Shown: positions 2,816 to 33,210 of the stretch, piece by piece
Numbering within the stretch: position 1 is the stretch's first letter
Layout: each line of letters starts with the position of its first letter
DNA from: Clostridia bacterium
GTDB lineage: Bacteria > Bacillota > TC1 > UBA5767
Assembly: GCA_030625965.1 (NCBI GenBank)
Contig: DAOUPV010000017.1
Coordinates: 1 to 34,777, forward strand
DNA length: 34,777 nucleotides
Direction of reading: 5' to 3'
Program-made: the position numbers and the translations under genes
The notes under the pieces: model-generated
Seen by the model: only the letters and a program-made list of their open reading frames with translations
Databases searched by the model: none
What the model was told of the DNA's origin: nothing

Positions 2816-4219
2816 ATGTCAGAACATAAAACAGATTATGGAATTGAGGAAGCGGTCCCAGAGCAAGATAGGCATTATAGTTTTTGGGATATGGCTGCTG
2901 TCTGGATGGGCGCGAACTGCCATCCGGCATCATGGTGGATTGGTGGAGTTATCGCAGCTGCAGGTTTTTCAGTTGCAATAAAAGTAAATTTAATCGTTGC
3001 ACCGGTTTCTTCAGTTATAATTGCACTTATCGCATTTATGGGCTTTAAAGTTGGTACTACTACGATTGGAATTTCCAGGGTTCCACTGGGCATCAATGGA
3101 AGTAAGGTTGCTGGAGCAATCAATGGTTTATCGGGTATAGGTTGGAGTGCGGTAGGTAATTTCTTGGGTGCCATTACCATGAGTTACATTTTCGCATCAC
3201 TCTTCGGTACACCGGTCTATGGTGAACCCGGTAGCACCGGTATTATGGTTTTCGGTGTTCTGCTGTGCGGGATTTTGTCCATGGCGTTTGTTTCCGTATC
3301 AGGCTCCCGTTCTATTGCCGTAGGGGAGAAGATACTAGCCGTACTGCTCATCGTCATGAGTGGTTGGATAACCTATGCGGTTCTCCAAACCTATAACATC
3401 CAGGATATTATCGCATGGGTACCACAAGCGGAAGCTTTCCTTCCATTCGGATTGGCTGTTGATGCACTGATGGCGTATTCCTTGGGTTGGGTTCTGAGCG
3501 CTTGTGAATTCACAAGATATGCAAAGAAAAGTTCAACGTCTACCTTGGCTCCTGGTTTGGGTCTGACGGTTGCTCTTTGGTGGTTCGTTCTGGTAGGTAC
3601 TATCGGAACCATCGCAGTAGCCATGAACACTGGAGTATTCGATCCTAACATGAGTGATCCCTCCAGCTTAGCTGCAGGTCTTGGTTTAGGATGGGTAGCA
3701 TTTGGCGTAATCTTGTTCTCGGTTGTTTCCACAAACCTGATTAACATCTACGTAGGCGCATATTCAATCATGAACATGTTCCCCAAATTGCAGTTGAAAC
3801 CAGCATTGAATTTAACTGGTGTTCTAACCATATTGGTTGGTTTGGTTCCAATCGGCGTGGGAAGTTTCTATCATTCCTTCGAAGTATTCTTGGGTTATTT
3901 GGGCGCTACCTTGCCCACGCTTGCCGCTATCTTGATTGTCGACTACTACATCATTAGAAAAGGCGATTACAGGATTGAACTTATTGGCAAGAAAAATGGA
4001 CCTTACTGGTATGGCAATGGTGTCAACTGGTATGCGATTGCATCCTGGGGACTGGGTGCAGCAACATATCTGTATTTGAAGAGCATCGGATTTGGTGCGA
4101 ACCTGATAGGCGCAGTAGTGCCAAGTATGTTCCTCTCAGGACTGATCTACTATGTGATTGCTAAAATCGCAGTTAGCAAACAGGCTTATGCCGACCTGAT
4201 AACTGATGATGCTGCATAG
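2816..4219 (+). CDS. NCS1-family nucleobase permease (cytosine permease-like)
   Basis: A 467-residue protein with about twelve hydrophobic membrane segments, the length usual for bacterial NCS1 transporters such as CodB. The N-terminal block SFWDMAAVWMGANCHPASWW matches the conserved first-helix region, and SRVPLGINGSKVAGAINGL is the conserved loop after helix 2. NCS1 proteins import purine or pyrimidine bases, allantoin, hydantoins or thiamine precursors with a cation or proton. AGGAGG precedes the ATG. It lies just upstream of a PucR-type regulator and an xdh operon, which suggests import of a purine- or pteridine-like heterocycle; the real substrate is not visible from sequence. A strong terminator follows, so it is probably monocistronic. 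Confidence 0.88.
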   Translation: MSEHKTDYGIEEAVPEQDRHYSFWDMAAVWMGANCHPASWWIGGVIAAAGFSVAIKVNLIVAPVSSVIIALIAFMGFKVGTTTIGISRVPLGINGSKVAGAINGLSGIGWSAVGNFLGAITMSYIFASLFGTPVYGEPGSTGIMVFGVLLCGILSMAFVSVSGSRSIAVGEKILAVLLIVMSGWITYAVLQTYNIQDIIAWVPQAEAFLPFGLAVDALMAYSLGWVLSACEFTRYAKKSSTSTLAPGLGLTVALWWFVLVGTIGTIAVAMNTGVFDPNMSDPSSLAAGLGLGWVAFGVILFSVVSTNLINIYVGAYSIMNMFPKLQLKPALNLTGVLTILVGLVPIGVGSFYHSFEVFLGYLGATLPTLAAILIVDYYIIRKGDYRIELIGKKNGPYWYGNGVNWYAIASWGLGAATYLYLKSIGFGANLIGAVVPSMFLSGLIYYVIAKIAVSKQAYADLITDDAA

Positions 4220-4949: not shown

Positions 4950-5357
4950 ATGAGTACAAAATATAAGTCAAATAGCAATGTAGTATATTCATGCAAATAT
5001 CATGTAGTTTGGTGTCCCCAATACCGCCGAAAGATTTTAGTGGGCGAAGTTGAAAGTCGCCTTAAAGAATGAATTCAATTGACTTGCGAAGAGCTCCAAG
5101 CGGACCTGAGTGAACTGGAAATTATGCCAGATCATGTGCATTTGCTAGTAGAAATAGATCCGCAGTTTGGCATTCATAGACTGGTAAAAAGCATTAAAGG
5201 CAAAACATCCAGAATACTCCGTAAGGAGTTTCCGCCGCTAACGACTAAGCTTCCAACGCTATGGTCTAATTCTTATTTTGTTTCAACTGTAGGTGGCGCA
5301 CCAATGTCAGTGATCAAGCAATATATTGAGAATCAAAAAACTTCTCAAAGGGGGTGA
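4950..5357 (+). pseudogene. tnpA: IS200-type Y1 transposase with internal TGA stop
   Basis: The reading frame begins MSTKYKSNSNVVYSCKYHVV and would give about 135 residues, the normal length of TnpA(Y1). The HUH pair is present (MPDHVHLLVE), and the catalytic tyrosine lies near the C-terminus in SVIKQYIENQ. Codon 41 is TGA (5070-5072) in SRLKE-stop-IQL, so only a 40-residue stub or a piece restarted at TTG can be made. All catalytic residues lie after the stop. The rest of the gene is undamaged, so this is a recent nonsense change. The element can move only if a related TnpA acts in trans or the stop is read through. Confidence 0.85.
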
Positions 5358-5361
5358 AATC

Positions 5362-6456
5362 ATGCAAATAACCGCACAAATCAAACTGTTGCCAACGTCA
5401 CATCAGGCACTCCTGCTTGATGTGACAATGCAGGAGTACATCCATACAGTGAACGGAATTGTTAGCGAATATCTGGCAGATACCGCCTTGAAGCCTACAT
5501 CCAAGAATATTAAAGCCGAACTTCCCAGTGCTTTGAAGAACCAAGCGGCACAAGAGGCAAAGAGCGTTTTCAGGAAATACTCTAAATGTCTTCGGGATAA
5601 TGCGAAGAAAGATATCTCCAAGCAAAAAGAAGTCAAAGTGCCTGTGCTAAAAAAGCCCGTAGCCATATGGAACAACCAGAACTTCGCCATCCAGTCCGGT
5701 CATGTCTCGTTTCCTATCTGGAATAACAACAAATCTAGACGACTGCTCCTAAAGGCAATGATATCTGATTATCAAGCCGGTCTTCTGGAGAATAAGCTAG
5801 GCACATTAAGGATAACCAAAAAGTCCGGAAAATATATTGCTCAGATAGCTGTGACCATTGAAGAAGCGCAACCAATCGGTAAACAAGTTGTCGGAGTCGA
5901 TCTTGGTCTCAAGGTGCCTGCAGTAGCTGCTACAGAGGGAGGCAAGGTCAAGTTTTTCGGCAATGGGCGTCAGAATAAATTCGTTAAGCGTAGATTTCGT
6001 TCCACGCGAAAGAAACTTGGCAAAGCAAAGAAGCTGCGTGCTGTCAAAAAAACCAACAACAAAGAGCAACGGTGGATGCGCGACTCTAATCACAAGGTCA
6101 GTCGACAAATCATTGATTTTGCTAAAGCTAACAATGCTTCGATGATCCGACTTGAAAAACTATCTGGTATTCGCCAGACGGCAAGAACAAGCCGTAAAAA
6201 CGAAAAAAATCTGCACACATGGAGCTTCTATCGATTGGCACAATACATTGAATACAAAGCAAAACTGGATGGGATAACAGTTGAATATGTCGACCCAAAA
6301 TACACCAGCCAAACCTGCCCTGTATGCAATACCCGCAATCATGCAAGAGATAGAAAATATAAATGCTCCTGTGGATTCGTAACTCATAGAGATATACTCG
6401 GTGCAAAGAACATAATTAATGCACCTGTGGCGGATGGTAAAAGTCTGCCAGCCTAA
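5362..6456 (+). CDS. tnpB: TnpB, RNA-guided nuclease of the IS605-type element
   Basis: A 364-residue TnpB, full length for the family. The split RuvC site is complete: Asp180 in VVGVDLGLKV, Glu265 in MIRLEKLSGI and Asp344 in THRDILGAKN. The zinc-ribbon cysteines are Cys319, Cys322, Cys335 and Cys337. TnpB proteins use an RNA from the element's right end (omega or reRNA) to cut DNA next to a target-adjacent motif equal to the insertion tetranucleotide, here TTAC. This cutting of empty donor sites favours retention of the element. The ATG follows GGGGGTGA and starts four bases after the tnpA stop; an in-frame upstream ATT is not a credible start. No CRISPR repeats lie nearby, so this is a transposon protein rather than a Cas effector. 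Confidence 0.92.
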   Translation: MQITAQIKLLPTSHQALLLDVTMQEYIHTVNGIVSEYLADTALKPTSKNIKAELPSALKNQAAQEAKSVFRKYSKCLRDNAKKDISKQKEVKVPVLKKPVAIWNNQNFAIQSGHVSFPIWNNNKSRRLLLKAMISDYQAGLLENKLGTLRITKKSGKYIAQIAVTIEEAQPIGKQVVGVDLGLKVPAVAATEGGKVKFFGNGRQNKFVKRRFRSTRKKLGKAKKLRAVKKTNNKEQRWMRDSNHKVSRQIIDFAKANNASMIRLEKLSGIRQTARTSRKNEKNLHTWSFYRLAQYIEYKAKLDGITVEYVDPKYTSQTCPVCNTRNHARDRKYKCSCGFVTHRDILGAKNIINAPVADGKSLPA

Positions 6457-6603
6457 GCTGCTATATGCACTGGCTTAGAACGGGCTAATGGCATAGCCCT
6501 TAACTCAGGGTCATACTGGCATAACGGAAACGGATCTTGCCTTTCATCACCTGAGAATCCTCTGGATTTAACCATGGGGAGTGTCAATGGAGGATAAGCA
6601 TGA
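6440..6603 (+). ncRNA. Predicted omega (reRNA) guide RNA of TnpB
   Basis: The end of tnpB and the right end of the element contain successive hairpins. The arms GCCAG/CTGGC and CTAAG/CTTAG nest just before and after the tnpB stop, and GGGCTA/TAGCCC follows at 6482-6499. The right-end hairpin then starts at 6559. In this family the RNA extends past the element boundary, and the first 16-20 flanking bases serve as guide. Here the guide would start TGGAGGATAAGCATGA, which is the ribosome site and start codon of the next gene. The 5' end is a guess. Confidence 0.5.
6555..6587 (+). repeat. Right-end subterminal hairpin and TCAA terminus of the IS605-type element
   Basis: GAAT (guide) is followed by CCTCTGG-ATTTAA-CCATGGGG, a hairpin with one bulged T, then AGTG and the terminal TCAA. 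This is the IS608 right-end arrangement, in which GAAT pairs with TCAA. It fixes the right boundary one base before TGGAGG. Confidence 0.75.
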
Positions 6604-8165
6604 AGATACCTGTTAAGGAATTGAAACGCGCGAATTATTTTAAGGATAATGAAATCATCGCAGGAAAAACAGGCATTGATGGTGTCATAACCGAGATTTC
6701 TATTCTTGAGTCATACTTTGACTATCAGCGCTTCCAGAAGAAAAACGGTTTCTCACTTGTTTCAGGCTGGTCGGAATTCTTTGAAACCAGAGAAAAGCGT
6801 ACTGAACTTTTAAGAAACCTGAAGATGCTCGGTGTTGCCTGCGTAGGCATATACAAATATGAATTTCCTGAGGGATTTCCAGATGATTTAATTACGATAG
6901 CCGATGAGTTGGGATTGCCTGTACTAGCACTTGACGATTACCAGACGATGGAAAAAATCATAAAATACTTGTCTGAAAATGTTTATATGAAATTCTACAA
7001 AAGTTTTATCCCTAGAGATGAAATTCAGGAGATTTTCCTTAAGTGCCATGAAGAGAACAAGTTCAATTGCATTGGAAACCGGCTCCAAGAAATCAGTGGC
7101 AATAAGATATATATTCGTTATTTCGGTAACGAATACGCCAGGAACAATATTAAGATCATAGAAGTACTTGATGCATACAATGAGTGGAATATGACTTCGC
7201 TCCAGCTGGGTAAGATTGAGATAGTGGACCGCTTTTACAAGTATCAAGTGAATATTGGGGGTGTAGAATACTATTGGATTGGTTTCCATGAGCACGACGG
7301 CTTTGAAATAACCAAGGCTTTTTGGATGTTTGTGGACCAACATGAGTATGATGAATTAAATTACCGCTTCTACTATTTGGCCTATAAGGCACTCCGGCTG
7401 GAGTTCAAAAAGAAGGAGTATGAATTCATAGCTGAGAACCAGAAAGATATTGAAGCGCTATTGATAGGCAAAACCAAACTATTTTATGATATCAACTTAC
7501 GCTGCATCCTTTTTTCGGTAAAATTGGAAGAAGCTCTTTTCCAGCAAAGCTATTCTTTGATTCATATGATTCTGGATCAATACGGGTATGGGGAAAGGAA
7601 GTTGCTTTTGGGAAGCATTGAGGACCAGCTGGTCTTAGTACTGTTCCTGGAGGCCGATATTGCTGAATTGGCAACTATACTTGAGGAGATTGAAGCGAGA
7701 TTGGGCGAGTTGATTTCAGCAACCAATATAGCGATTGCAGCTGGAAATCTGGTTGATGCCGAATCAATGAAGGCAAGCTATGAGAACGCCAAACGAACCT
7801 TGTTCTGGGTGCAAAATAGGGGGAAAGCTAATGTAGGCTTCTATGAAGATCTGGGTGTGCTCAGTGTATTGGACACACGAATTGCAGAGCAGATCATCAG
7901 CACATTACAGGAAAAATATATATCCCCACTATTGGAATGCGATGAGGAAAAAAACATGGAGTTGTTCACCACCATGGAACAATATGTCATCTCATTGTGG
8001 AACTATACGGATGCCTCGAAGAGGCTTTTCATACACTCAAATACGGTTAAGTATCGGATTAAGCAGGCTGAAGGTCTTCTGGGGATTGATCTGTCCGATT
8101 ATCAGGAACGACTGAATATAGAAATGGCAATTTCTATTTATAGATACATGGAGGGAAAAAGATAA
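6600..8165 (+). CDS. PucR-family transcriptional regulator
   Basis: A 521-residue regulator with three parts. The N-terminal PucR domain (about 1-125) starts MKIPVKELKRANYF. A divergent CdaR/GGDEF-like middle region follows. The C-terminal PucR helix-turn-helix (about 455-521) includes NYTDASKRLFIHSNTVKYRI and ends in the usual helix. PucR proteins control purine use in Bacillus and related heterocycle or sugar-acid pathways elsewhere, often binding a pathway intermediate. Its position between the NCS1 permease and xdhABC fits control of both. TGGAGG lies directly before the ATG, but the IS605-type element has cut this site off from the likely original promoter. Expression now depends on element-borne or read-through transcription. 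A strong terminator follows. Confidence 0.85.
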   Translation: MKIPVKELKRANYFKDNEIIAGKTGIDGVITEISILESYFDYQRFQKKNGFSLVSGWSEFFETREKRTELLRNLKMLGVACVGIYKYEFPEGFPDDLITIADELGLPVLALDDYQTMEKIIKYLSENVYMKFYKSFIPRDEIQEIFLKCHEENKFNCIGNRLQEISGNKIYIRYFGNEYARNNIKIIEVLDAYNEWNMTSLQLGKIEIVDRFYKYQVNIGGVEYYWIGFHEHDGFEITKAFWMFVDQHEYDELNYRFYYLAYKALRLEFKKKEYEFIAENQKDIEALLIGKTKLFYDINLRCILFSVKLEEALFQQSYSLIHMILDQYGYGERKLLLGSIEDQLVLVLFLEADIAELATILEEIEARLGELISATNIAIAAGNLVDAESMKASYENAKRTLFWVQNRGKANVGFYEDLGVLSVLDTRIAEQIISTLQEKYISPLLECDEEKNMELFTTMEQYVISLWNYTDASKRLFIHSNTVKYRIKQAEGLLGIDLSDYQERLNIEMAISIYRYMEGKR

Positions 8166-8397: not shown

Positions 8398-10689
8398 ATG
8401 AGTTTTAAGTGTGTAAATCAGAGAGTAATTCGAAAAGATATTGTTGCCAAGGTAACAGGAAGAGCACGGTATACTGCGGATCGAACTGAACGGGAGATGC
8501 TGTATGGTGCTTTGGTAAGAAGCAAGGTAGCCCATGGCTATGTGAAATCAATTGACACCAGTAAAGCAGAGCAGCTTCCTGGCGTTATCAAGGTGGTAAC
8601 TTATGATGATTTGAAAGCGATTAAATTCCCTACGTGCGGGCATCCGCATAGCGTAATTGTGGAAAAGAGGGATATCGCCGACAAGACGGTGTTCACCAAT
8701 CATGTGCGGCATTTTGGCGATGAGATCGCGGGAGTGGTCGCTGTAGATTCGTATACAGCAAGAAAAGCGGCTGAGCTGGTAGAAGTGGAGTATGAAAAGT
8801 TACCGGTATACCTCGAATCGGAGGAAGCTCTACAAGAGGGTGCGAAAGAAATCCATGACGGGTCAAAAAACATCGTAAAAGAAGATGAGTATGAATTGGG
8901 TTCAGATGTGGAACCGATTTTTGAATCAGCTGACTATGTGCTGGAGGAAGACTATGATATATCACCAGTCAAGCATTGTCACTTGGAAAACCAGATTGCT
9001 TACGCCTACCAAGATGCTGAGCAGCGAATTGTAGTGGTATCCGCCACTCAGATTCCACATATCGTAAGGAGGATCCTATCGCAGGCATTTGAACTTCCTT
9101 ACAGTAAGTTTCGGATCATTAAGCCATATGTAGGAGGCGGTTTCGGCAATAAGCAAGATGTAGTCGTAGAACCTCAGGTCGTTGCTCTGAGTCTCGCGGT
9201 TGGTGGAAAACCGGTCCTGATAGAATACTCCAGGGAAGAACAGATGGTAGCCACCAGAACGAGACATGCTGTCAAGATTAGCTTGAAGAGCGGCTTCAAT
9301 AAGGACGGTGAGATCTTGGCGCAGAAAGCGGTAATCGTTTCTAATGGAGGCGGATATGCAGCCCATGGACATGCCATTACAGAGACGATGGCTGGTAACT
9401 TCATGCAGACCTACATGAGCATTAAGAATTTTAAATCTGAGCAGATTACAACCTATACCAACCTTCCTGTAGCCGGAGCCATGCGTGCTTATGGCGTACC
9501 GCAGATTTCATTTGCCGTCGAATCACATTTGGATAGCATCGCAGGGATGCTGCAATTGGACCCAGCCGCATTAAGAGATATCAATATGACTGAAGACGAT
9601 CTCAATAACGAATTTACGGGAGTCGATTATTCCATAAAGGGATTGAAGGAAGCAATTGAAAGAGGCAAGGAACGAATCTCATGGAATGAGAAGCAGAAAG
9701 CCTACCAAGGACAGATAGGTGAAAAGAGAAAGGGTGTCGGTATGGCTTGCTTTACCTTTGATTCCGGTACGTGGCCGTATTATCCGGAATTGGCAGGAGC
9801 CAATATCACGATGAACCAGGATGGACACCTTTACATGCATCTCGGGGCGGTGGAGATCGGCCAAGGATCGGATACGGTATTTTGCCAGATGGCAGCTGAG
9901 ACGACTGGGGTATCCTATGACAATGTTCACATCAATTCGCTGACGGATACGGATTACTCTCCATTTGATACCGGTGCTTATGGCACCAGGCAGACGTATA
10001 TTACCGGCCAAGCTGTAGTAAAAGCAGCAGAAATTATTTATGGGAAGATCCTTGAAAAAGCCGCGAATCTCTTGGATGTCGGATCAGAGAAGCTGGATGT
10101 CGCTGATGACTATGTGATCGATAAGGCAAGTAAGCGACAGCTGATGTCTCTGGCGGATCTTGCGCTAAACACCTACTATAACGAAGAATCAGGAGAAGTG
10201 ATTACCTGCAGCGTTAGCAATCAGGTCAAGAGCAACTCCATCAATACCGGTGTGTGTTTCACTGAAGTAGAAGTAGATATCACCACTGGCAAAGTGGATA
10301 TTCTGGATATATTCAATATTCACGACTGTGGCACGGTGATCAATCCTGATACGGCAGAAGGTCAGGTCCATGGTGGTATAAGCATGGGTATCGGATATGC
10401 CTTGATGGAAACCATGTTGTTCAATAAGGACGGTCTCCCTCTGAATGATAATCTGCTGGACTACAAACTGCCTACTACCTTGGATCATCCTGATTTGGGT
10501 GCGGATTTCGTTGAGACTTATTCTGAAACCGGACCCTTTGGGGCTAAAGGTCTGAGTGAACCGACAACCGTACCGACAGCGCCCGCGATTCGAAATGCGA
10601 TTCTTAATGCCACAGGTGTGAAAGTGAATAGCTTGCCCATGAATCCACAATGTCTGTTCGAGAATTTCAAAGATGCAGGTTTAATATAG
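8398..10689 (+). CDS. xdhA: Xanthine dehydrogenase-type molybdenum hydroxylase, molybdopterin-binding subunit
   Basis: A 763-residue catalytic subunit, close in length and sequence pattern to E. coli XdhA. Recognisable blocks in order are YVGGGFGNKQD in the molybdopterin-binding region, GAMRAYGVPQISFAVES with the active-site arginine, VEIGQGSDTVFCQMAAE, VHGGISMGIGYALMET, and GPFGAKGLSEPT with the catalytic glutamate. The last block reads GLSEP where many homologues have GLGEP or GVGEP. XdhA hydroxylates purine or related heterocycles with oxygen from water and passes electrons through the Fe-S and FAD subunits. AGGAGGAG precedes the ATG, and the gene starts a tight operon with the other two subunits. 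Xanthine or hypoxanthine is the default substrate; a pteridine is possible given the neighbours. Confidence 0.93.
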   Translation: MSFKCVNQRVIRKDIVAKVTGRARYTADRTEREMLYGALVRSKVAHGYVKSIDTSKAEQLPGVIKVVTYDDLKAIKFPTCGHPHSVIVEKRDIADKTVFTNHVRHFGDEIAGVVAVDSYTARKAAELVEVEYEKLPVYLESEEALQEGAKEIHDGSKNIVKEDEYELGSDVEPIFESADYVLEEDYDISPVKHCHLENQIAYAYQDAEQRIVVVSATQIPHIVRRILSQAFELPYSKFRIIKPYVGGGFGNKQDVVVEPQVVALSLAVGGKPVLIEYSREEQMVATRTRHAVKISLKSGFNKDGEILAQKAVIVSNGGGYAAHGHAITETMAGNFMQTYMSIKNFKSEQITTYTNLPVAGAMRAYGVPQISFAVESHLDSIAGMLQLDPAALRDINMTEDDLNNEFTGVDYSIKGLKEAIERGKERISWNEKQKAYQGQIGEKRKGVGMACFTFDSGTWPYYPELAGANITMNQDGHLYMHLGAVEIGQGSDTVFCQMAAETTGVSYDNVHINSLTDTDYSPFDTGAYGTRQTYITGQAVVKAAEIIYGKILEKAANLLDVGSEKLDVADDYVIDKASKRQLMSLADLALNTYYNEESGEVITCSVSNQVKSNSINTGVCFTEVEVDITTGKVDILDIFNIHDCGTVINPDTAEGQVHGGISMGIGYALMETMLFNKDGLPLNDNLLDYKLPTTLDHPDLGADFVETYSETGPFGAKGLSEPTTVPTAPAIRNAILNATGVKVNSLPMNPQCLFENFKDAGLI

Positions 10690-10699
10690 GGAGGAATAT

Positions 10700-11578
10700 A
10701 TGTTTGATATCAGCAACTACAGAGAAGCGTTAAGCGTAAAAGACGCGATGACATATCTTAAGGAAGATCCGAGTAGTATGGTCATCGCAGGTGGAACCGA
10801 TGTGCTTATTAAGGTCAGGGAAGGGAAACTGGCGGGTAGCAGCCTGGTCGGCATCCATAAGATAGATGACTTGAAAGGGATATGCAAGGATGCCAACGGA
10901 GATATTCATATCGGGTCGTTGGTATGCTTCACCCAATTGGAAGAAGATGAAATTATAAAAGAGAATGTAGACTATCTGGGCAAAGCTGGAGGCACCATGG
11001 GTGGCCCGCAGCTGAGAAACATTGCAACAATCGGAGGTAATGTCTGCAACGGAGTGACATCGGCGGATAGTGGATCTATGTTGGTTTGCTTGAATGCGAA
11101 CCTGAAGCTCTCAAGCATCGATGGTGAAAGAATTATGCCCATCAGCGACTTTTACATGGGACCTGGCAAAGTGGATCTTAGAGCGGGGGAACTACTGACC
11201 GACATCATCATTATGAAAGAAGATTACGAAGGTTTCACCGGAAAATACATCAAATTCAGTCAAAGAAGGGCGATGGATATCGCGACGATCGGCTGCTCAG
11301 TTATGCTGAAGCAAAAAGGGGGAGTAATAACTGATTTCAGATTGGGTTATGGGGTGGCGGCACCTACGCCGGTAAGATGCCCTGTAGCGGAAGCGTTTGC
11401 TGTTGGTAAAAAAGCTACTGAAGAAAATGCCAAAGCAATAGGAGAAAAAGCCTTGGAGGATGTAATGCCGAGGGATTCCTGGAGGGGATCAAAAGCTTTC
11501 AGACAGCAATTGATCAAGGAACTGGCCAGAAAGGCGATTGAAGAATTGGCAGGACTGAGAGGTGGGCAAGATGCTTAA
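10700..11578 (+). CDS. xdhB: Xanthine dehydrogenase-type FAD-binding subunit
   Basis: A 292-residue protein of the CO dehydrogenase flavoprotein/XdhB type. It opens MFDISNYREALSVKDAM. The FAD-binding segments are VIAGGTDVLIK near residue 35 and NIATIGGNVCNGVTSADS near residue 112, followed by RRAMDIATIGCSVML and the C-terminal SWRGSKAFRQQLI. It carries electrons from the Fe-S subunit to NAD+ or another acceptor. It starts ten bases after the xdhA stop with GGGAGGA in front, and its stop overlaps the next start by eight bases, so the three subunits are co-translated. Confidence 0.93.
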   Translation: MFDISNYREALSVKDAMTYLKEDPSSMVIAGGTDVLIKVREGKLAGSSLVGIHKIDDLKGICKDANGDIHIGSLVCFTQLEEDEIIKENVDYLGKAGGTMGGPQLRNIATIGGNVCNGVTSADSGSMLVCLNANLKLSSIDGERIMPISDFYMGPGKVDLRAGELLTDIIIMKEDYEGFTGKYIKFSQRRAMDIATIGCSVMLKQKGGVITDFRLGYGVAAPTPVRCPVAEAFAVGKKATEENAKAIGEKALEDVMPRDSWRGSKAFRQQLIKELARKAIEELAGLRGGQDA

Positions 11579-12035
11579 GCAAATCAATATCACCTTAAAT
11601 GGTGTAGAAAGATCTGTGGAAATCGATGAACGAGAATCTCTGCTAGAGGTCTTACGCGACAAACTGTATATGACTTCTGTCAAACATGGATGTGGCGTAG
11701 GAGAATGTGGTGCCTGTGCGGTACTTATCGATGGTGTGGCCATTGATTCCTGTATCTACTTGGCTACATGGGCAGATGGCAAAGAGATCAGGACGGTGGA
11801 AGGTTTCGAACAGGATGGTGAACTTAATGCCATGCAAGAAGCCTTCGTAGAAGAAGGTGCGGTCCAATGCGGATTTTGCATTCCGGGATTTCTGGTTTCT
11901 GCGACTGAGCTGAAGGAGACGAATAAGAGCTACACCAGAGATGAAGTGAGAAAAGCATTATCTGGCCATTTATGCAGATGTACCGGCTACCAAAAGATTG
12001 TAGAAGCGACGGAGAAAGGTTTAGAGAAAGAGTAG
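11571..12035 (+). CDS. xdhC: Xanthine dehydrogenase-type [2Fe-2S] subunit
   Basis: A 154-residue subunit with both [2Fe-2S] clusters. The plant-ferredoxin-like N-terminal cluster is in CGVGECGACAVLIDG with a further cysteine in DSCIYL. The C-terminal cluster is in QCGFCIPGFLVSA and CRCTGYQKIVEA. The ATG inside the xdhB stop region, preceded by GAGAGG, is preferred over a GTG three codons earlier. It wires the molybdenum site to the FAD subunit. A clear terminator lies 25 bases after the stop and closes the operon. The name follows E. coli usage (xdhC for the Fe-S subunit, not the sulfurtransferase chaperone of the same name elsewhere). Confidence 0.93.
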   Translation: MLKQINITLNGVERSVEIDERESLLEVLRDKLYMTSVKHGCGVGECGACAVLIDGVAIDSCIYLATWADGKEIRTVEGFEQDGELNAMQEAFVEEGAVQCGFCIPGFLVSATELKETNKSYTRDEVRKALSGHLCRCTGYQKIVEATEKGLEKE

Positions 12036-12060
12036 AATTACTGAATAGTATAATAAATAA

Positions 12061-12098
12061 CAAGAGCTAAGAAAGGGTTGCTTTCTTAGCTCTTGTTT
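12061..12098 (+). terminator. Intrinsic terminator of the xdhABC operon
   Basis: A perfect 15-bp stem (CAAGAGCTAAGAAAG with its complement) and a 5-nt loop run into a short T stretch ending TTTTGATTT. Confidence 0.9.
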
Positions 12099-12452
12099 TG
12101 ATTTATATCAACTTTTAGGGAGCTGGATCTTGCAACAAAATATGCTCAAAGTGAGTAAGTAGTTTCTGGGGTGATTCTGATGGAACAATACGAGAAGCGT
12201 TTAATCTATTAAACAGATTTGCTGAAACCACTACAAACACCCTAATCCATGGAAATGAAGCATTTTCATGCTGTAGCTTTGTGAAGATGGCTAAAGAAGA
12301 GCTTCATCACATCAATGTTAGCATTAGGATATGTCAGATGTTCTTAGTATCAAGTCTAGAAGAACTGAAGATGCTCAAAATATTGTATAATGGGTATGAA
12401 CATGGTTACTGACTTTGTTGCAGAAAGTATGAAAAGAAGGAGGGTAAGAATA
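12099..12452 (+). other. Intergenic region with an open frame lacking a start
   Basis: About 350 bases between the xdh terminator and the flavoprotein. One frame stays open from 12155 to 12411, reading for example REAFNLLNRFAETTTN and LHHINVSIRICQMFLVSS. It has no start codon near its beginning and no ribosome site, and I recognise no family. It could be the tail of a deleted gene. A TATAAT (12386-12391) ahead of the flavoprotein may be its -10 box, without a clear -35. Confidence 0.35.
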
Positions 12453-13139
12453 ATGACAAAAGCTAAGATCCTAGGTATTTGCGGAAGCCATCGCAAGGGT
12501 GGTGCTACAGAATATTGCGTAAAAGAAGCTTTGAAGTCATCTGAATCGGTTCCCGGTGTAGAAACAGAATTCGTGTCACTTCAAGGGAAGAAAATCATGC
12601 ACTGTATTCATTGTAATAAATGCATCAAGGATGGTACCTTATGTGTCATCAAAGATGATTTTCAAGAAATTCAAGAGAAGTTTCTGGAAGCAGACGGTTA
12701 TATCCTTGGAAGCCCTGTCTACCAAATGAATTCTACTCCTTTAATACAAGATTTTTGCAGCCGGTTGCGACCGACCTATTTGGTATACCCCGGCCACTTC
12801 GCAAATCGTGTTGGTGGGGCAATTGCTACTGGCGGTACACGTCATGGGGGTCAGGAAATGACACTTTTGACTTTGAGAAATGTTTTTTTGACATACGAGA
12901 TTTTAACTACTGGCGGTCCGGGCGGTAATTATTGCGGAGCAGCTGTATGGTCTCAAGATAAAAAGGAACTAGGTGCCAAAGAAGACTTAGTCGGCATGCA
13001 AAAAGTTACTGGACTTGGTAGAAGAGTAGCTGAAGCCGCACTGATCTTAAAGGCAGGGAAACAAGCACTTAAGGATGAGGGCGTTGAGTTGAAAAAAGAG
13101 GATTTGTGGTTTAAAGATCATTATAAGGATATTGAGTAG
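12453..13139 (+). CDS. Iron-sulfur flavoprotein (NADPH-dependent FMN reductase-like fold)
   Basis: A 228-residue flavodoxin-like protein. The FMN phosphate loop is GICGSHRKGGATEY near the N-terminus. The compact cysteine motif CIHCNKCIKDGTLC (Cys51, 54, 57, 64) matches the [4Fe-4S] motif of the iron-sulfur flavoprotein (Isf) family. SPVYQMNSTPLIQDF and GGTRHGGQEMTL are the usual flavin-contact loops. Isf proteins shuttle electrons in anaerobes, often from ferredoxin. The ATG after AAGGAGGG is preferred over GTG or ATG codons further upstream. It lies between a molybdenum hydroxylase and the reductase/deaminase genes, so it may supply or accept electrons for this pathway. That role is inferred from position only. 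Confidence 0.85.
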   Translation: MTKAKILGICGSHRKGGATEYCVKEALKSSESVPGVETEFVSLQGKKIMHCIHCNKCIKDGTLCVIKDDFQEIQEKFLEADGYILGSPVYQMNSTPLIQDFCSRLRPTYLVYPGHFANRVGGAIATGGTRHGGQEMTLLTLRNVFLTYEILTTGGPGGNYCGAAVWSQDKKELGAKEDLVGMQKVTGLGRRVAEAALILKAGKQALKDEGVELKKEDLWFKDHYKDIE

Positions 13140-13308
13140 AGAGGGTCCGCGTGGTATGAGAGACAGGGGTTTAACGGTGTTGCATACTTTTTAATATGTA
13201 AGTGAAGTGTCTACGATACTACGTGAGACCTCAGATCATTGAATTATCGCTGCGGATTGTGCACATAACTTGATAATGAGGATGTTGAAGTGTTTGGGAG
13301 AGCAGCCT

Positions 13309-14085
13309 ATGGGTATAATTACAGATCTACATACACATATATGCCGAACCCCTTGGAAAGAGATGCATTTGACTGCCCGTGAAAACCACTTGAAGTATAT
13401 AGGGATCAGTGAGCACGTATACCAGTTGCAGGAAACCCGGGCACTAATGGGAGACTTTTTCCTGGAAGGAAGAGTCTATGAAATAGAGGAATACTTTCAG
13501 ATCTTACAGTCTCTCCAAGAGGATGATGTGCACGTTTTGCGTGGAGTGGAGCTAGATTACTTACCTGAGATCATGCCACGATTGCGTCAGAGACTCACAG
13601 AGTATCCTTTTGATTATGTGATAGGTGCCGTGCATGAATTAGATGGTTGGGATATTCATACCTATAGGGATAAACCGGACATATCCCCGGAAAGTTTATG
13701 GCTAAAATATTTCGATGCACAACTCGACTTGTTGGAACATGGATGCATACAAATATTGGCGCACCCGCTACGCTTGGCTGTTACTGAAAAACAATTTACA
13801 CCGCTTGTTGAGGAAAGATTGATTGATTTGGTCCAAAGGGCCTCCCAAAAAGATGTTGCGGTTGAAATCAATGCCAAAGACGTTATATTGGCACCTAGTT
13901 TGGCCAGGGTGATGGTACAAGCCAGTCATAGAAATAAGGCGATGATAACGACCGGGACAGATGCCCACTATCCGGAGGAGCTGAACCGGGGAATTGCTAC
14001 ACTACAGACTCTTCTAAGCGATGGGAATCTGGAAAGAACAGTAATTTTCATCAATCAGATTGCTGTGTCAGTAAGCGGACTATGA
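13309..14085 (+). CDS. PHP-domain metal-dependent phosphoesterase
   Basis: A 258-residue PHP-superfamily protein, the size of histidinol-phosphatase-like hydrolases. The metal-binding motifs are all visible: DLHTHI at the N-terminus, SEHVYQL, GVELDYL, GAVHELDGW, LAHPLRL, VEINAK, and TGTDAHYPEEL near the C-terminus. Such enzymes remove phosphate from small molecules with a tri-metal centre. No histidine operon surrounds it. In this context it could dephosphorylate a pathway intermediate, for instance a phosphorylated pterin side chain, but the sequence does not show this. GGGAG lies eight bases before the chosen ATG; in-frame codons upstream lack a ribosome site. Confidence 0.82.
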   Translation: MGIITDLHTHICRTPWKEMHLTARENHLKYIGISEHVYQLQETRALMGDFFLEGRVYEIEEYFQILQSLQEDDVHVLRGVELDYLPEIMPRLRQRLTEYPFDYVIGAVHELDGWDIHTYRDKPDISPESLWLKYFDAQLDLLEHGCIQILAHPLRLAVTEKQFTPLVEERLIDLVQRASQKDVAVEINAKDVILAPSLARVMVQASHRNKAMITTGTDAHYPEELNRGIATLQTLLSDGNLERTVIFINQIAVSVSGL

Positions 14086-14487
14086 TTATTTTGCGTAATG
14101 TAACATTCGGTACGCATATTGAGGTAGGCGCTAGTTTTGCTTTCTTGCCAAAAGCCAGAGGCTAGTGTAGAATTGAGGCGTGGAACCAGTTCCACGGGCT
14201 ATTTGCTACATGCAGCATACAAGTGGAGGCTTCTGTGATCGAGAGAATGAAAGAGTATATCGCATATCTGAATATTTTCTAACTGTCGGAGTACACTCGC
14301 AGACAAGTTGGAAATTTGAGTGAAGCTGCATGGTCAGGCGCCTAGGCGCATGTGTCATGTGGTGCGAGGAAGCTATGAGAAAAAAAGAAAAAGTCTTTAT
14401 CACGCGCCTGAATATTTTTTAAATGATGGAAGCAGTTACGATGGTAGAATTTACGTAGATCGTTTATTAGATTCAGGAGGCAAAATT
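14086..14487 (+). other. Leader region with two palindromes and a duplicated mini-frame
   Basis: About 400 bases before the first RibD-type reductase. A nested inverted repeat occupies 14092-14116 (TGCGTA/TACGCA around AATGT-A-ACATT). A perfect 8-2-8 palindrome, CGTGGAACCAGTTCCACG, is at 14179-14196. Further on, two similar short frames both end in LNIF-stop: MKEYIAYLNIF (start 14247) and MRKKEKVFITRLNIF (start 14374, after GAGG). The DNA around the stops is nearly the same (CTGAATATTTT). These could be leader peptides, a tandem duplication, or decayed sequence. The long frame upstream of the reductase ATG is not needed to explain the gene. Confidence 0.4.
14179..14196. promoter_or_regulatory. 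Operator-like palindrome upstream of the reductase-deaminase-FolB cluster
   Basis: CGTGGAAC-CA-GTTCCACG is perfectly symmetric and not followed by a T run, so it is more like a protein-binding site than a terminator. It is the best candidate control site for the genes that follow. Confidence 0.4.
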
Positions 14488-15501
14488 ATGGGAAAACTTT
14501 TTATGATGGATTTTGAGACGGAGCAAATTAAGTTGAATGTTTGTTACCAGAACGAGGAAATCCTTGAAGCGATACAGTCTGAAAGCCCGGACCGGGCCAT
14601 GAAAAAGGTGAACGAGGTGTATGGGGAGCTATTGTTCCCGCCTGCTCCGGATGACCGGCCGTATACGTTTTGTTCAGTCGTGTTGTCCGCTGACGGAAAG
14701 ATGTCCTACAGCAACAATCAGCACGGGTCACTGATTGGAAAAGAGAATTATCTGGACCCTGACGGTTCCTTGGCTGACTGGTGGTTCTTGAACGCTCTCA
14801 GAGCTTATGCTGATGGCGTTATTGTCGGTGCGAGAACATTGCAGTGTGAAAAATTTGCCACTAGCCATGTATTTGACAGGGAAATGGCCGCTCAAAGAAT
14901 CGAGGAGATGGGGAAACCTGCTCATCCGTTGAACGTCGTGATTTCTTTTGATGCCACGGACATTCCTTTCGACCATCTGATTTTCAATGTGGACCCGGAA
15001 GAGAAGTTTCCGGTAATCGTAGCAACTTCACCGCAGGGTGGAGAATACATTTCCGGGAATCTGAAGAAGGAACACATCATTCTTGGTCCTTACCAGGACA
15101 AAGACGAAATCGATGAAGAACAGATCAGGTCAATCAAAGAGGCATTGCAGGACCAAAGTATCATACCAGTCATCCTGACTGGGCAAGAGAACCGCCCAGA
15201 TTCCAGAGTACTGCTTTATCTTTTGCGGAAACTTGGGTTAGAGCGCTTGCTACTGGAATCACCCAGTTACAACTGGCATCTAATGGAACAGGAAATGCTG
15301 GATGAGTATTTCATCAATTACTCCATGGTATATGCCGGGGGAGGTATTACACCGGGATATAACCGGGGTTTTGAGCATGACAACCATCCTCATGCCAAAA
15401 TCCTTACAGTTGGCACCCATAATTCTAACTTCATATTCACCAGACAAAAGGTTTTCTACGGTGTAAGTAGCCAGGAAGATCTTAGTAAGTACAAGTATTA
15501 G
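14488..15501 (+). CDS. RibD C-terminal-like (DHFR-fold) NAD(P)H reductase, copy 1
   Basis: A 337-residue protein. The core resembles the reductase domain of RibD: PYTFCSVVLSADGKMSYS (usual form: a hydrophobic strand then S-DGK), then ADGVIVGARTLQ, LNVVISF, PVIVATSP and LGLERLLLESP. RibD reductases use NADPH to reduce a ribosylaminopyrimidinedione and share the DHFR fold. This protein has no deaminase domain and carries an unusual insert, GKENYLDPDGSLADWWFLN, also found in the second copy (30549-31511). There are no rib genes around it, so riboflavin synthesis is unlikely. A reductase of a dihydropteridine, lumazine or similar ring is proposed. AGGAGG lies seven bases before the chosen ATG. 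Thirty-one bases separate it from the amidohydrolase. Confidence 0.8.
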   Translation: MGKLFMMDFETEQIKLNVCYQNEEILEAIQSESPDRAMKKVNEVYGELLFPPAPDDRPYTFCSVVLSADGKMSYSNNQHGSLIGKENYLDPDGSLADWWFLNALRAYADGVIVGARTLQCEKFATSHVFDREMAAQRIEEMGKPAHPLNVVISFDATDIPFDHLIFNVDPEEKFPVIVATSPQGGEYISGNLKKEHIILGPYQDKDEIDEEQIRSIKEALQDQSIIPVILTGQENRPDSRVLLYLLRKLGLERLLLESPSYNWHLMEQEMLDEYFINYSMVYAGGGITPGYNRGFEHDNHPHAKILTVGTHNSNFIFTRQKVFYGVSSQEDLSKYKY

Positions 15502-15532
15502 AAGTGAAATGCAGTTAGAAGGAGGAATAGAC

Positions 15533-16876
15533 ATGTTACAAGCAGATATATGGTTACGCGGAGGAAGTCTGGTTCATGAGGACGGACGCATCGAAAAAAG
15601 GGATATGCTGATTTCTGATGGAAAGATTGATAGGATCATGCACCCGCATCGGAACGTGGAAGTCCAGGCCAAGCAGATCATCAACCTCAAGGGCAAGTAT
15701 GTGATGCCAGGCTTAGTCAATACCCATACCCATCTGTTCCAGACTTGGTTCAAGGGATTGGGCCGGGATTTGAAACTAATAGATTGGCTGGCGGCTTCAA
15801 TTAGGCCTAATGCACCAAAACTGACCCGGGAGGACTGCTACTACGGAGCCTTGCTGGGCGCCATGGATACGGTGATGTCAGGTGGCACATCCATCATGGA
15901 CTTCATGTACGCCAATGAGAAGAAGGACTCAATCCTGGGTGCCATCGACGCACTGGATGATTTGGGTGTTCGGGCGGTCATGGGCCGTGGAATCATTGAT
16001 GTAAAACTGGAAGATGAGAACCACAACCGATTGGTAGAGACACCGGACCAGGTCGTTGAACAGCTGGATAGGCTAAGGGACTATGTCAACGATAAGGACC
16101 GATTGGATATCGGCATTGCAGGCAGTGTGTTCTGGGCCATTTCCGAGGAAGGCTTCGCTACTATCCGGGATTATGCAGATAAACATAAGGTTACCGTAGC
16201 CTTGCATGCTTCGGAGACCGATGATGACAACCAGGATAGCATGCGCCGTTTCGGCATGAGGATGTTCCCCTATTTGGAGAGTATCGGATTTCTTCAGGAA
16301 TGGCTGACCGCAGTACACTGCGTGACCTTGGACGAGACGGATATGGACCTGATTGAGAAGAACAAAATCAAGGTATCCTACAACCCCATGAGCAACCTGA
16401 TTCTGGGATCTGGCATACCACCCATGGAAGAACTGAGAAGGCGCGGCGTGACTATCGGTCTGGGAACAGATGGAGCGGCCTCCAGCGATTCTCAGGACAT
16501 GCTGGAGGCTATCAAGCTGGCGGCTATCTTGCAGAAAGGGGCCAACCAGGACCCAACGGCCTTCAAGGCGGCAGATGTTCTGCAGATGGCTACCTTAGGT
16601 GGTGCACACTGTATGGGTATTGCGGATAAGACTGGTAGTTTTGAGGCAGGCAAAAGGGCTGATCTCTTTGTCTACAACCCACGGTGCATAAAGTCAGCGC
16701 CTGTCTATAATCCGGTGAACTCACTGGTCTACGCTTCGGACACGAGCAGCGTGGAGATGGTGCTCGTCGATGGCAAGGTCATCTACCGGGACGGAAGGTT
16801 TACTAACGTGAACCAGGAGGACGTGCTGGATTGGGTGGAGGACGTTAAAGCTAAGTTTGATACGCAGGACAAATAG
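15533..16876 (+). CDS. Amidohydrolase of the guanine/8-oxoguanine/isoxanthopterin deaminase type (ATZ/TRZ/SsnA-like)
   Basis: A 447-residue metal-dependent amidohydrolase, COG0402-like. The mononuclear metal site is complete: His65 and His67 in NTHTHLFQTW, His225 in LHASETDDDN with the catalytic Glu228, His262 in AVHCVTLDE, and Asp313 in GLGTDGAASSDSQDM. The C-terminal part returns to the beta-sandwich with ADLFVYNP. This clade deaminates aminated heterocycles including guanine, 8-oxoguanine, isoxanthopterin, triazines and adenosine derivatives. AGGAGGAAT precedes the ATG. Placed between a DHFR-fold reductase and FolB-like proteins, it is the candidate enzyme that replaces the ring 2-amino group by oxygen. 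The exact substrate cannot be read from the sequence. Confidence 0.88.
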   Translation: MLQADIWLRGGSLVHEDGRIEKRDMLISDGKIDRIMHPHRNVEVQAKQIINLKGKYVMPGLVNTHTHLFQTWFKGLGRDLKLIDWLAASIRPNAPKLTREDCYYGALLGAMDTVMSGGTSIMDFMYANEKKDSILGAIDALDDLGVRAVMGRGIIDVKLEDENHNRLVETPDQVVEQLDRLRDYVNDKDRLDIGIAGSVFWAISEEGFATIRDYADKHKVTVALHASETDDDNQDSMRRFGMRMFPYLESIGFLQEWLTAVHCVTLDETDMDLIEKNKIKVSYNPMSNLILGSGIPPMEELRRRGVTIGLGTDGAASSDSQDMLEAIKLAAILQKGANQDPTAFKAADVLQMATLGGAHCMGIADKTGSFEAGKRADLFVYNPRCIKSAPVYNPVNSLVYASDTSSVEMVLVDGKVIYRDGRFTNVNQEDVLDWVEDVKAKFDTQDK

Positions 16877-16949: not shown

Positions 16950-17669
16950 ATGAACTACAAAATGTACAAGAACATCACCATTTTTGCAACCCATGGCCAC
17001 GCTATCCAGGAAAAGGAACTGGGACAAAAATTTGTCCTGGAAATCACCTTGTTCGGTGAAGATCTGTCCAAAGTTGATGCATCCGTATCAGAAGCGGAAG
17101 TGGAGCGTTTCATCCAGGAAGAGGCAATTGATGTGCACCGGGATATGATTCAAGCCGTATCTGGCCACGTAGCCGATCTGATCCTTGAAGCCAGTTCAGA
17201 CGCCCTGAAGGAAGTCCGGATCGAGGTGAAAAAACCATCCACACCTATCCGCATCGGAATGCCGGGCGGTCTGGTCAAGTATGTGAGCACTACGGTAAGC
17301 CGTAGAAAAGAGGACTATGCACCGGTATATGAACACGTTGAGGACTACAATTTCACCAAGATTCGGAGCGCCAGGGTCTTCGACAGGGACGTGAAAATGG
17401 AAGCCGATTTGGAAGTGGCCTTCGACATGGGACCGTCCATCGAGAATGACGATATCGCCTACAGCTACAGCTATACCACGGTTTATGACGTAGCTGTGGA
17501 TACCATCAAGGCCAACAAAGGCGATAAGCCTTTTGAACTGGCCCGCAAGATGGTGGAAAAGGTTTACGAAGACAAGCCTGATGCCAAGATGGTACGTGCT
17601 ACTGTCAGAAACTTCCTGCCAGAAAACAACCTGTCCGTAGATTATATGGAATACATGGTAGTAAAATAG
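16950..17669 (+). CDS. Fused tandem FolB-like (dihydroneopterin aldolase/T-fold) protein
   Basis: A 239-residue protein, twice the length of a normal FolB, with two T-fold halves. Residues 1-120 follow dihydroneopterin aldolase: THGHAIQEKELGQKF with the first-loop glutamate (about Glu21), DMIQAVSGHVADLI where the pterin-anchoring Glu is Gln68, and RIEVKKPSTPI with the catalytic-type lysine (Lys94 or Lys95). The tyrosine expected near residue 54 is missing. Residues 132-239 are more divergent. This half supplies a tyrosine cluster (IAYSYSYTTVYDVAV, 169-183) but has no lysine at the catalytic place, and its anchor position is unclear. The halves may complement each other, as the two T-fold domains of urate oxidase do. 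AAGGAG precedes the ATG, 73 bases after the deaminase. Confidence 0.8.
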   Translation: MNYKMYKNITIFATHGHAIQEKELGQKFVLEITLFGEDLSKVDASVSEAEVERFIQEEAIDVHRDMIQAVSGHVADLILEASSDALKEVRIEVKKPSTPIRIGMPGGLVKYVSTTVSRRKEDYAPVYEHVEDYNFTKIRSARVFDRDVKMEADLEVAFDMGPSIENDDIAYSYSYTTVYDVAVDTIKANKGDKPFELARKMVEKVYEDKPDAKMVRATVRNFLPENNLSVDYMEYMVVK

Positions 17670-17952: not shown

Positions 17953-18327
17953 ATGAGAAAAGAAGATATCTTATACGTGAAAGATATGCGTTTCTGGGGC
18001 ACCCACGGGTATTTCCAGGAAGAGAACAAACTGGGTCAGCAATTCGGTGTGGACATTGAAGCCAAAATCGATATGACCGACATGTGTGAAAAAGATGAGT
18101 TCGTCTGGGAAATCAGCTATGTGGCTTTGTTCAAAGCGGCTAAGAAAATCGTTGAGGGTGAAGAACATAAATTGATCCAGCGTGTGGCTTATCGTATCGT
18201 TGAGGAAGTATTCGCGACGACACCGGCTTCCAAAGTCAGTGTGACCATCAAGAAACCGGGCGCACCAATCGGCGGCATATTCGATCACACTGGATGTATA
18301 ATCGAGAGAACTAGAGAAGAAATGTAA
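17953..18327 (+). CDS. FolB-like dihydroneopterin aldolase/T-fold protein with Glu-to-Gln anchor
   Basis: A 124-residue single-domain T-fold protein of normal FolB length. It aligns by eye with S. aureus dihydroneopterin aldolase: RFWGTHGYFQEENKLGQ with the loop glutamate (Glu23/24), WEISYVALFKAA with Tyr56, and VTIKKPGAPIGG with Lys100. The residue that anchors the pterin 2-amino group, Glu74 in S. aureus, is Gln76 here (KLIQRVAYRI). The aldolase normally splits 7,8-dihydroneopterin into 6-hydroxymethyl-dihydropterin and glycolaldehyde. With glutamine, a 2-oxo ring such as dihydrolumazine would fit better. No folP, folK or folE is nearby, against folate synthesis. GGGGAAA precedes the ATG, and a terminator follows. 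Confidence 0.82.
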   Translation: MRKEDILYVKDMRFWGTHGYFQEENKLGQQFGVDIEAKIDMTDMCEKDEFVWEISYVALFKAAKKIVEGEEHKLIQRVAYRIVEEVFATTPASKVSVTIKKPGAPIGGIFDHTGCIIERTREEM

Positions 18328-18370
18328 CAAACTGCAGCAACGAATAGAGATGTGGTAACACAAAGGGTAG

Positions 18371-18400
18371 CCCCTTCCGAAAGGAAGGGGTTTTTATTTT
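18371..18400 (+). terminator. Intrinsic terminator after the FolB-like gene
   Basis: CCCCTTCC-GAAA-GGAAGGGG followed by TTTTTATTTT: a perfect 8-bp stem with a GNRA tetraloop and a good U tract. It ends the reductase-deaminase-FolB cluster. Confidence 0.9.
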
Positions 18401-30548: not shown

Positions 30549-31511
30549 ATGGCATTACCGGAGGTAGTATTTGAGGCGAAGGAAATTAAGCTGGATCGTA
30601 TTCTGGATCATACGGAAGAGTTGGGGTACAAGTATCCGGGCTTTCCCTGTTCCAAGATCGAAGAGGTATACGGAGAACTGAAGTTCAGGGAAAAGCCGGA
30701 GTTAAGACCCATGACCTATGCATCCTATGTGATGTCGATTGACGGTAAAATCGCCTTTGAAGACAATGAGGTGGGACCGCTGATCGCCAAGAACAACTAT
30801 CTGGATCCGGTAGGAGCCTTCGCGGATTTCTGGATTCTCAATATGTTGCGGGGCAACAGTGATGCCATAATCATCGGATCCGGGACGTTGATCAAGGAAC
30901 CGGATTATTCAGGCAGCGCTTACGACAGGGACATTATTGACGCTAGAGTTAGAGCGGGCAAACCCATAGCTCCCTTGACCGTGGTGGTAACCAGGTCAGG
31001 TCGGAACATCCCGTTTGACAATCCGGTCTTCCAGTGTGAAGAGGTACCAATATTGATCGCTACCTCTCCTTCGGGTTATCTCAATCTTAAGAAGGAACTT
31101 AAGAAGGAATACTTCCTGCTGCCGACGGCGAAAAATGGATCGGACCTGGAAATAATAAAAGAAGTGGTCAAGGATAATCCCGATAAGATCGGGGTAACCA
31201 TAACCGGGTCAGGATTGCAAACGGATGCCGGGGAACTGTTGAAGATCTTGGATGCCATGGGTATGGAAAAAGTCCTGGTAGAATCACCGGCGTACTGCCA
31301 TCAGCTGATGCAGGAAGGTCTTTTGGATGAGATATTCATCGATACTTCGTGTGTCTTTGTAGGCGGGCAGGCGACCGGCATCGGTAGTGATAAGGAATCA
31401 TTCATCTCGACGAATCACCCCCATGCCGAGATCGTTTCCATGCATCTCCATGGTCCTCATTTTTTCTATACGAGGTACGGACTGAAGTACGATGTGAAGA
31501 ATAAAAAATAG
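30549..31511 (+). CDS. RibD C-terminal-like (DHFR-fold) NAD(P)H reductase, copy 2
   Basis: A 320-residue paralogue of the reductase at 14488-15501. Shared blocks are KIEEVYGELKF (KVNEVYGELLF in copy 1), MTYASYVMSIDGKIAF, IAKNNYLDPVGAFADFWILN, SDAIIIGSGTL, PILIATSPSGY, GMEKVLVESP and the closing NHPHAEIVS. The core is the NADPH-binding RibD reductase domain, and no deaminase domain is present. The inserted NYLDP-x-G-x-x-AD-W/F-W-x-LN block sets both copies apart from ordinary RibD. GGGAGG precedes the ATG. It is followed at 90 bases by an aldo/keto reductase, so it may reduce another intermediate, or another substrate, of the same pathway. Confidence 0.8.
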   Translation: MALPEVVFEAKEIKLDRILDHTEELGYKYPGFPCSKIEEVYGELKFREKPELRPMTYASYVMSIDGKIAFEDNEVGPLIAKNNYLDPVGAFADFWILNMLRGNSDAIIIGSGTLIKEPDYSGSAYDRDIIDARVRAGKPIAPLTVVVTRSGRNIPFDNPVFQCEEVPILIATSPSGYLNLKKELKKEYFLLPTAKNGSDLEIIKEVVKDNPDKIGVTITGSGLQTDAGELLKILDAMGMEKVLVESPAYCHQLMQEGLLDEIFIDTSCVFVGGQATGIGSDKESFISTNHPHAEIVSMHLHGPHFFYTRYGLKYDVKNKK

Positions 31512-32727: not shown

Positions 32728-33210
32728 ATGAGAAGACAGATCAAAGTCAATGGAGAGATCCATTGGATAGAAGGTGAGGACGACCGGAGGCTTCTGGATG
32801 TGTTGCGGGAAGATATGGGCTTGATGGGCACCAAGGAAGGGTGTGGTCAGGGAGAATGCGGGGCCTGCACGGTTCTGATGGACGGCAAGGCTGTTAATTC
32901 CTGCCTGATCTATTTGGGATCGATCGGGGAGAAGAGCATTATTACCATAGAAGGATTGGCCAAGAACGGGGAACTTGATGTGATCCAACAGGCCTTCGTG
33001 GAAGAAGGCGCGGTACAGTGTGGATTCTGCACGCCGGGTATGATCATGTCGGCCAAGGCGCTTTTGATGAGGGATAAGAACCCGGACCGGGAGCGGATCA
33101 AATGCAGTGTCAGCGGCAATCTCTGCCGTTGCACCGGCTATAGTAAGATCATTACGGCTATCGAAAAGGCTGCCGAGAGAATGAGAGAAGGTGACATCCG
33201 TGAGCTATAG
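32728..33210 (+). CDS. Molybdenum hydroxylase [2Fe-2S] subunit (second set)
   Basis: A 160-residue Fe-S subunit with both clusters: CGQGECGACTVLMDG plus NSCLIYL, and QCGFCTPGMIMSA with CRCTGYSKIITAI. It is related to the first set's subunit (EEGAVQCGFC is shared) but is a separate copy. TAGGAGG precedes the ATG. It is translationally coupled to the molybdopterin subunit, whose GTG lies inside its last codons. No FAD subunit gene precedes it; one may lie past the window edge, or the enzyme may use a different electron acceptor, like aldehyde oxidoreductases that lack FAD. Confidence 0.92.
   Translation: MRRQIKVNGEIHWIEGEDDRRLLDVLREDMGLMGTKEGCGQGECGACTVLMDGKAVNSCLIYLGSIGEKSIITIEGLAKNGELDVIQQAFVEEGAVQCGFCTPGMIMSAKALLMRDKNPDRERIKCSVSGNLCRCTGYSKIITAIEKAAERMREGDIREL

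Follow-up and report, generated by a model that had tools for sequence, protein, structure and literature searches.

A FolB homologue with a glutamine at the substrate anchor, found apart from folate genes in Bacillota and probably acting in purine or pteridine salvage or breakdown

Dihydroneopterin aldolase (DHNA; FolB, EC 4.1.2.25, PF02152) grips its substrate by an anchor glutamate that has been reported to be strictly conserved (PMC9937910). What is the role of a FolB homologue in which this residue is a glutamine? A protein of this kind, here termed FolBQ, is encoded in the window, that is, the whole stretch of 34,777 nucleotides that was analyzed. Its ORF (17953–18327, + strand) starts with ATG and encodes a single-domain protein of 124 amino acids which exceeds the curated score of Pfam FolB (96.6 bits; cut-off 31.8) and also that of the NCBIfam folB equivalog TIGR00525 (99 bits; cut-off 72.15). 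Automatic annotation, which names it dihydroneopterin aldolase, would assign to it a step of folate synthesis that it probably does not perform.

In phmmer, S. aureus DHNA (1DHN, E 7e-17) and 5f3m (E 1.3e-20) both align with FolBQ over the full length. The segment KLIQRVA corresponds unambiguously in the phmmer alignment to NLLEHLA of the S. aureus enzyme, and MAFFT alignments agree. Gln76 (codon CAG, 18178–18180, + strand) hence takes the position of S. aureus Glu74, the substrate-gripping anchor. This is the replacement that the original prediction had read in the sequence, and at the position where a glutamate would have contradicted it the alignments place Gln76. The catalytic set is kept: FolBQ residues Glu24, Tyr56 and Lys101 (the Lys of "KKP") correspond to Glu22, Tyr54 and Lys100 of S. 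aureus DHNA. The prediction was right about all three residues but mixed the numbering, as its Lys100 is the S. aureus number. FolBQ and DHNA have in common the fold family, the Glu/Tyr/Lys set, the HG motif, the Gln of the GQ motif and the length, whereas the strictly conserved anchor Glu of DHNA is missing from FolBQ. The single-sequence AlphaFold prediction of FolBQ (pLDDT 47) was too poor for overlay on DHNA or urate oxidase. For the gene itself, an assembly artefact was rejected on the basis of an orthologue, 89% identical, in the single-contig genome G009.

The distribution of the Gln anchor was analyzed in a draw of 399 genomes from the same phylum as the window genome, to whose FolBs those of 15 selected genomes were added. 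The draw contains nine close FolBQ homologues, separated from ordinary FolBs by a score gap; eight carry Gln at the anchor and one, from genome G379, carries Glu. The selected genomes add two Gln-type loci, a second FolB in G008 and, in G083, a tandem FolB whose two domains both carry Gln. When the anchor column was excluded from tree building, a branch with support 98/93 separated the 12 sequences of the Bacillota FolBQ clade, which reaches down to about 39% identity, from all others. As Gln occupies the anchor in 11 of these 12 sequences and in none of the 32 other FolBs sampled, all of which have Glu, its presence is more than chance. The tree needs two anchor changes. We read them as a single gain of Gln with a return to Glu in G379; the tree does not reject two separate gains, nor does an AU test reject the Gln rows as a single clade (p 0.33). 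The Gln-type members represent few independent lineages. Class-level searches around G119, G240 and G055 yielded no further members, and the family is therefore patchy; no relatives that would deepen the alignment were found among viral contigs. In S. aureus numbering, the clade keeps the Glu22 and Lys100 positions in 12 of 12 sequences and Tyr54 in 11 of 12. Unlike the anchor, these catalytic residues do not split the clade from other FolBs, and several further columns do: Leu39 of DHNA is replaced by Met, Gly43 by Cys, Tyr13 by Trp and Thr51 mostly by Gly.

Separation from folate synthesis is apparent both at the locus and in whole genomes. The window genome (G000) has another, Glu-type FolB on contig C95, where folP and folK flank it within a folate operon (folE/folP/folK; neighbors named by eye, HPPK by search). 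Folate genes were not found among the neighbors of FolBQ in the window, and none adjoins it at any locus examined. HPPK (FolK) was searched for in 15 genomes and was not found in four of them, G007, G008, G083 and the 99% complete G009, which contain only Gln-type FolBs. The 11 HPPK-positive genomes all have a Glu-type FolB, an association that is expected; the informative part is the persistence of Gln-type genes without HPPK. The sole Glu member of the clade comes from a genome, G379 (84% complete), in which HPPK is present and neither an MCH match nor any other FolB was found. Neither in its neighbors nor in its association with HPPK does FolBQ resemble a FolB of folate synthesis, and we consider a role outside that pathway to be very likely. 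The switch is marked by one testable residue, for which G379, a natural Glu member within the Gln clade, provides a built-in control. A non-folate paralogue of FolB is already known, FolX, the dihydroneopterin triphosphate epimerase (COG1539; PMC5041015). FolX acts in tetrahydromonapterin synthesis and is set apart from FolBQ by this description.

In the window, FolBQ is the last gene of a unit bracketed by two terminator-like hairpins on the + strand, one with a 17-bp stem (12059–12097), which separates it from molybdenum-hydroxylase genes, and one resembling an intrinsic terminator with a 10-pair stem (18369–18392), which closes it after FolBQ; the overall number of such matches in the hairpin search is not above that of shuffled sequences. 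The genes of the unit, all on the + strand, encode an FMN_red flavoprotein (12390–13139; Pfam) that is 52% identical to one beside FolBQ in G119, a PHP-domain, histidinol-phosphatase-like protein (13270–14085; Pfam, NCBIfam), a RibD C-terminal-like reductase (14320–15501; Pfam RibD_C, 30.3 bits), a COG0402-type amidohydrolase/deaminase (15509–16876; Pfam, NCBIfam), a tandem two-domain FolB-like protein, FolB2d (16950–17669; Pfam FolB, 68.8 bits; phmmer to 2cg8), and FolBQ. The upstream deaminase to which the original prediction referred lies within the same unit as FolBQ, and deaminases also occur near several independent FolBQ operons; that of the window is 41% identical to the one beside the G055 operon. 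It matches MTA/SAH, 8-oxoguanine and triazine hydrolases best, and the sequence does not tell the substrate. Upstream of the unit, also on the + strand, Pfam identifies a cytosine/purine-type permease (2816–4219; Transp_cyt_pur, 114.4 bits), a PucR-type regulator of purine catabolism (6600–8165; PucR, 49.4 bits; HTH_30, 59.4 bits) and the three subunits (8398–10689, 10700–11578 and 11562–12035) of a molybdenum hydroxylase of the xanthine dehydrogenase family (8398–12035). A search with Rfam found no riboswitch in the window.

The first domain of FolB2d has Gln68 at the anchor and is devoid of the catalytic Tyr, and its second domain is devoid of the HG...E motif. The anchor of the first domain is Gln in all eight FolB2d homologues. 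The structure model is of moderate quality (pLDDT 64), and Foldseek matches it to DHNA domain by domain and to uricase across both domains; FolB2d and urate oxidase each have two T-fold domains per chain.

Taking the relatives together, six genomes from four families encode Gln-type FolBs in operons that also specify a PnrA-like ABC importer and a flavoprotein resembling FMN reductase; in most cases a deaminase, a LacI regulator and a pair of MCH-type cyclohydrolases are present as well. In G119, G055, G240 and G371, FolBQ is flanked by the FMN_red flavoprotein and by a PnrA-like lipoprotein with two permeases and an ATPase, and a LacI regulator and two MCH-type cyclohydrolases are encoded close by; a COG0402 deaminase lies near FolBQ in the last three of these genomes. 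The MCH, FMN_red, lipoprotein, deaminase, aldolase, alcohol dehydrogenase and kinase families were assigned with Pfam on representatives, and the permease, ATPase and LacI genes by similarity and by eye. The G083 tandem FolB and the second G008 FolB adjoin a transporter and flavoprotein of the same type. FolBQ lies outside an ABC-importer operon in the window and in G009; in the latter, a LacI gene is transcribed divergently from it, and an SDR-MCH-E1-E2-MCH cassette lies about 3 kb away. A formamidase-like gene adjoins FolBQ in G007 and at one G008 locus. What the window unit and the operons of the relatives have in common is a flavoprotein, a deaminase and FolB. The importer lipoprotein belongs to the PnrA/Bmp family, the sequence relatives of which include binding proteins for atrazine and other compounds. 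Among the 399 genomes, MCH is present in 25, including all eight Gln-type genomes of the draw (Fisher p 7e-11, kinship ignored). In the two MCH homologues that were compared with solved MCH structures by alignment, an R-x-x-E motif is retained, which we take to be catalytic. As the four genomes in which HPPK was not found keep only Gln-type FolBs, and as Gln-type FolBs of six genomes occur in operons with an importer and a flavoprotein and mostly also a deaminase, a role of FolBQ in the salvage or catabolism of purines or pteridines is likely.

Several further observations were made. A conserved cassette of the order SDR, MCH, E1 alpha, E1 beta, E2, MCH recurs on other contigs and genomes (loci L082, L084, L086, L087, L088 and L151); in L087 it is preceded by deaminase and PnrA-like importer genes and followed by an FMN_red gene. 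G000, which has its own folate operon, contains six MCH matches on contigs C91, C83, C9, C145 and C64, three of them full length and three partial. Alcohol dehydrogenases, a DeoC/LacD-type aldolase, an FGGY kinase and AOR-type genes recur near FolBQ or FolB2d loci (L059–L062, L149 and L021), and a purine riboswitch in L060 precedes a different gene, about 8 kb away from FolBQ.

What the anchor change means for the ring that is bound can be considered from known structures. In simulations of E. coli DHNA, both N3-H and the 2-amino group of the pterin donate hydrogen bonds to the carboxylate of the anchor, Glu73, at about 100% occupancy, and no other residue matters more for binding (PMC4176595). 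Gln should therefore disfavor a 2-amino ring in that pose and suits one that presents N3-H and C2=O. As the 2-amino group donates to the backbone carbonyl of Leu51' too (PMC4176595), this loop would also have to move for a 2-oxo ring; the loop around S. aureus Thr51 does differ in the FolBQ clade, where that position is mostly Gly and also Glu or Ala. The precedent invoked in the original prediction was urate oxidase, a T-fold enzyme in which an invariant Gln228 indeed holds the 2-oxo substrate, but this residue works together with Arg176, the two forming ligand tweezers (PMC2490695). Gln at the ring-gripping position of FolBQ would be an analogous feature, if the equivalence stated in that prediction is accepted; matches of FolBQ in Pfam and among PDB sequences are to FolB, with no homology to the uricase family found, and urate oxidase performs an oxygen-dependent oxidation whereas chemistry of the DHNA type is aldol cleavage. 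The further proposal, that Gln implies a 2-oxo substrate matching the deaminase, stands in part: the replacement at the anchor is genuine, it is conserved and goes with another genomic role, and the deaminase is linked, but for a 2-oxo, lumazine-like ring itself we see about even chances. FolBQ probably acts on a different ring compound than DHNA does, perhaps a deaminated one.

Three other explanations have to be weighed. FolBQ could be an ordinary dihydroneopterin aldolase that tolerates the Glu-to-Gln change and is redundant with the folate-operon copy, as its scores above both cut-offs and its intact catalytic residues would suggest. Such a reading has to contend with a Gln maintained down to about 39% identity, with loci that never adjoin folate genes, with retention where HPPK was not found, and with a Glu that in DHNAs is strictly conserved (PMC9937910) and the main binding residue (PMC4176595), and we regard it as very improbable. 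Production of a non-folate pterin cofactor, for instance a methanopterin-like carrier for the MCH enzymes, rather than breakdown, is somewhat less improbable. The co-occurrence with MCH, the FTR homologues of several of the genomes and the pterin-binding methyltransferase-like genes near MCH speak for it, but FTR was not found in the FolBQ-bearing genomes G000, G008, G119 and G371, and operons with an ABC importer and LacI, several having alcohol dehydrogenases and a deaminase nearby, have the look of uptake and breakdown.

The remaining explanation keeps FolBQ in the same import and salvage pathway and differs in the ring. This would be a purine-type ring, or a purine or pteridine that keeps its 2-amino group and binds in a different tautomer or register, and an unprotonated ring nitrogen would accept from Gln. 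Gln offers one donor and one acceptor and does not alone dictate C2=O; a 2-amino ring lacking the hydrogen at N3 could be a partner for it as well, and the backbone carbonyl to which the 2-amino group donates in DHNA (PMC4176595) may remain in place. The kinship of the importer lipoprotein with binding proteins for atrazine and other compounds, the linked flavoprotein and, in the window, the purine-type regulator likewise speak for it. Against it stands the deaminase, repeatedly linked to FolBQ (G055, G240, G371 and the window). We hold this alternative to be a possibility of some weight, though an unlikely one.

The reading that we prefer, with roughly balanced confidence when taken as a whole, is that FolBQ is a T-fold aldolase or epimerase derived from DHNA that acts outside folate synthesis in the salvage or catabolism of imported purine- or pteridine-type compounds. 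In the mechanism that we propose, the linked deaminase would generate a 2-oxo, lumazine-type 7,8-dihydropteridine. Gln76 would hold its ring, the side-chain oxygen facing N3-H and the side-chain NH2 facing C2=O, and FolBQ would then act on a polyol side chain as DHNA usually does, by retro-aldol cleavage or by 2'-epimerisation. Retro-aldol cleavage of a dihydrolumazine in particular is a tentative assignment, somewhat more doubtful than the 2-oxo ring itself. The linked operons suggest that Bacillota have a purine/pteridine pathway, as yet undescribed, which includes MCH-type cyclohydrolases. As a speculative extension, Gln-anchored FolBs, paired MCH-type cyclohydrolases, the deaminase and the PnrA-like importer might make up an anaerobic pathway in which purine nucleosides or pteridines are broken down via deaminated, lumazine-type dihydropteridines, with the MCH-like enzymes, and in some genomes also a formamidase, handling a ring carbon and FolBQ removing the side chain. 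We found no papers in the open-access literature linking FolB with lumazine or with MCH.

Some other features of the window can be mentioned. An IS605 OrfB/TnpB-like transposase is encoded between the permease and the PucR gene (5326–6456). Besides the RibD_C-like reductase of the FolBQ unit (14320–15501), the window contains a second one (30549–31511), which lies near a lone [2Fe-2S] hydroxylase subunit (32728–33210).
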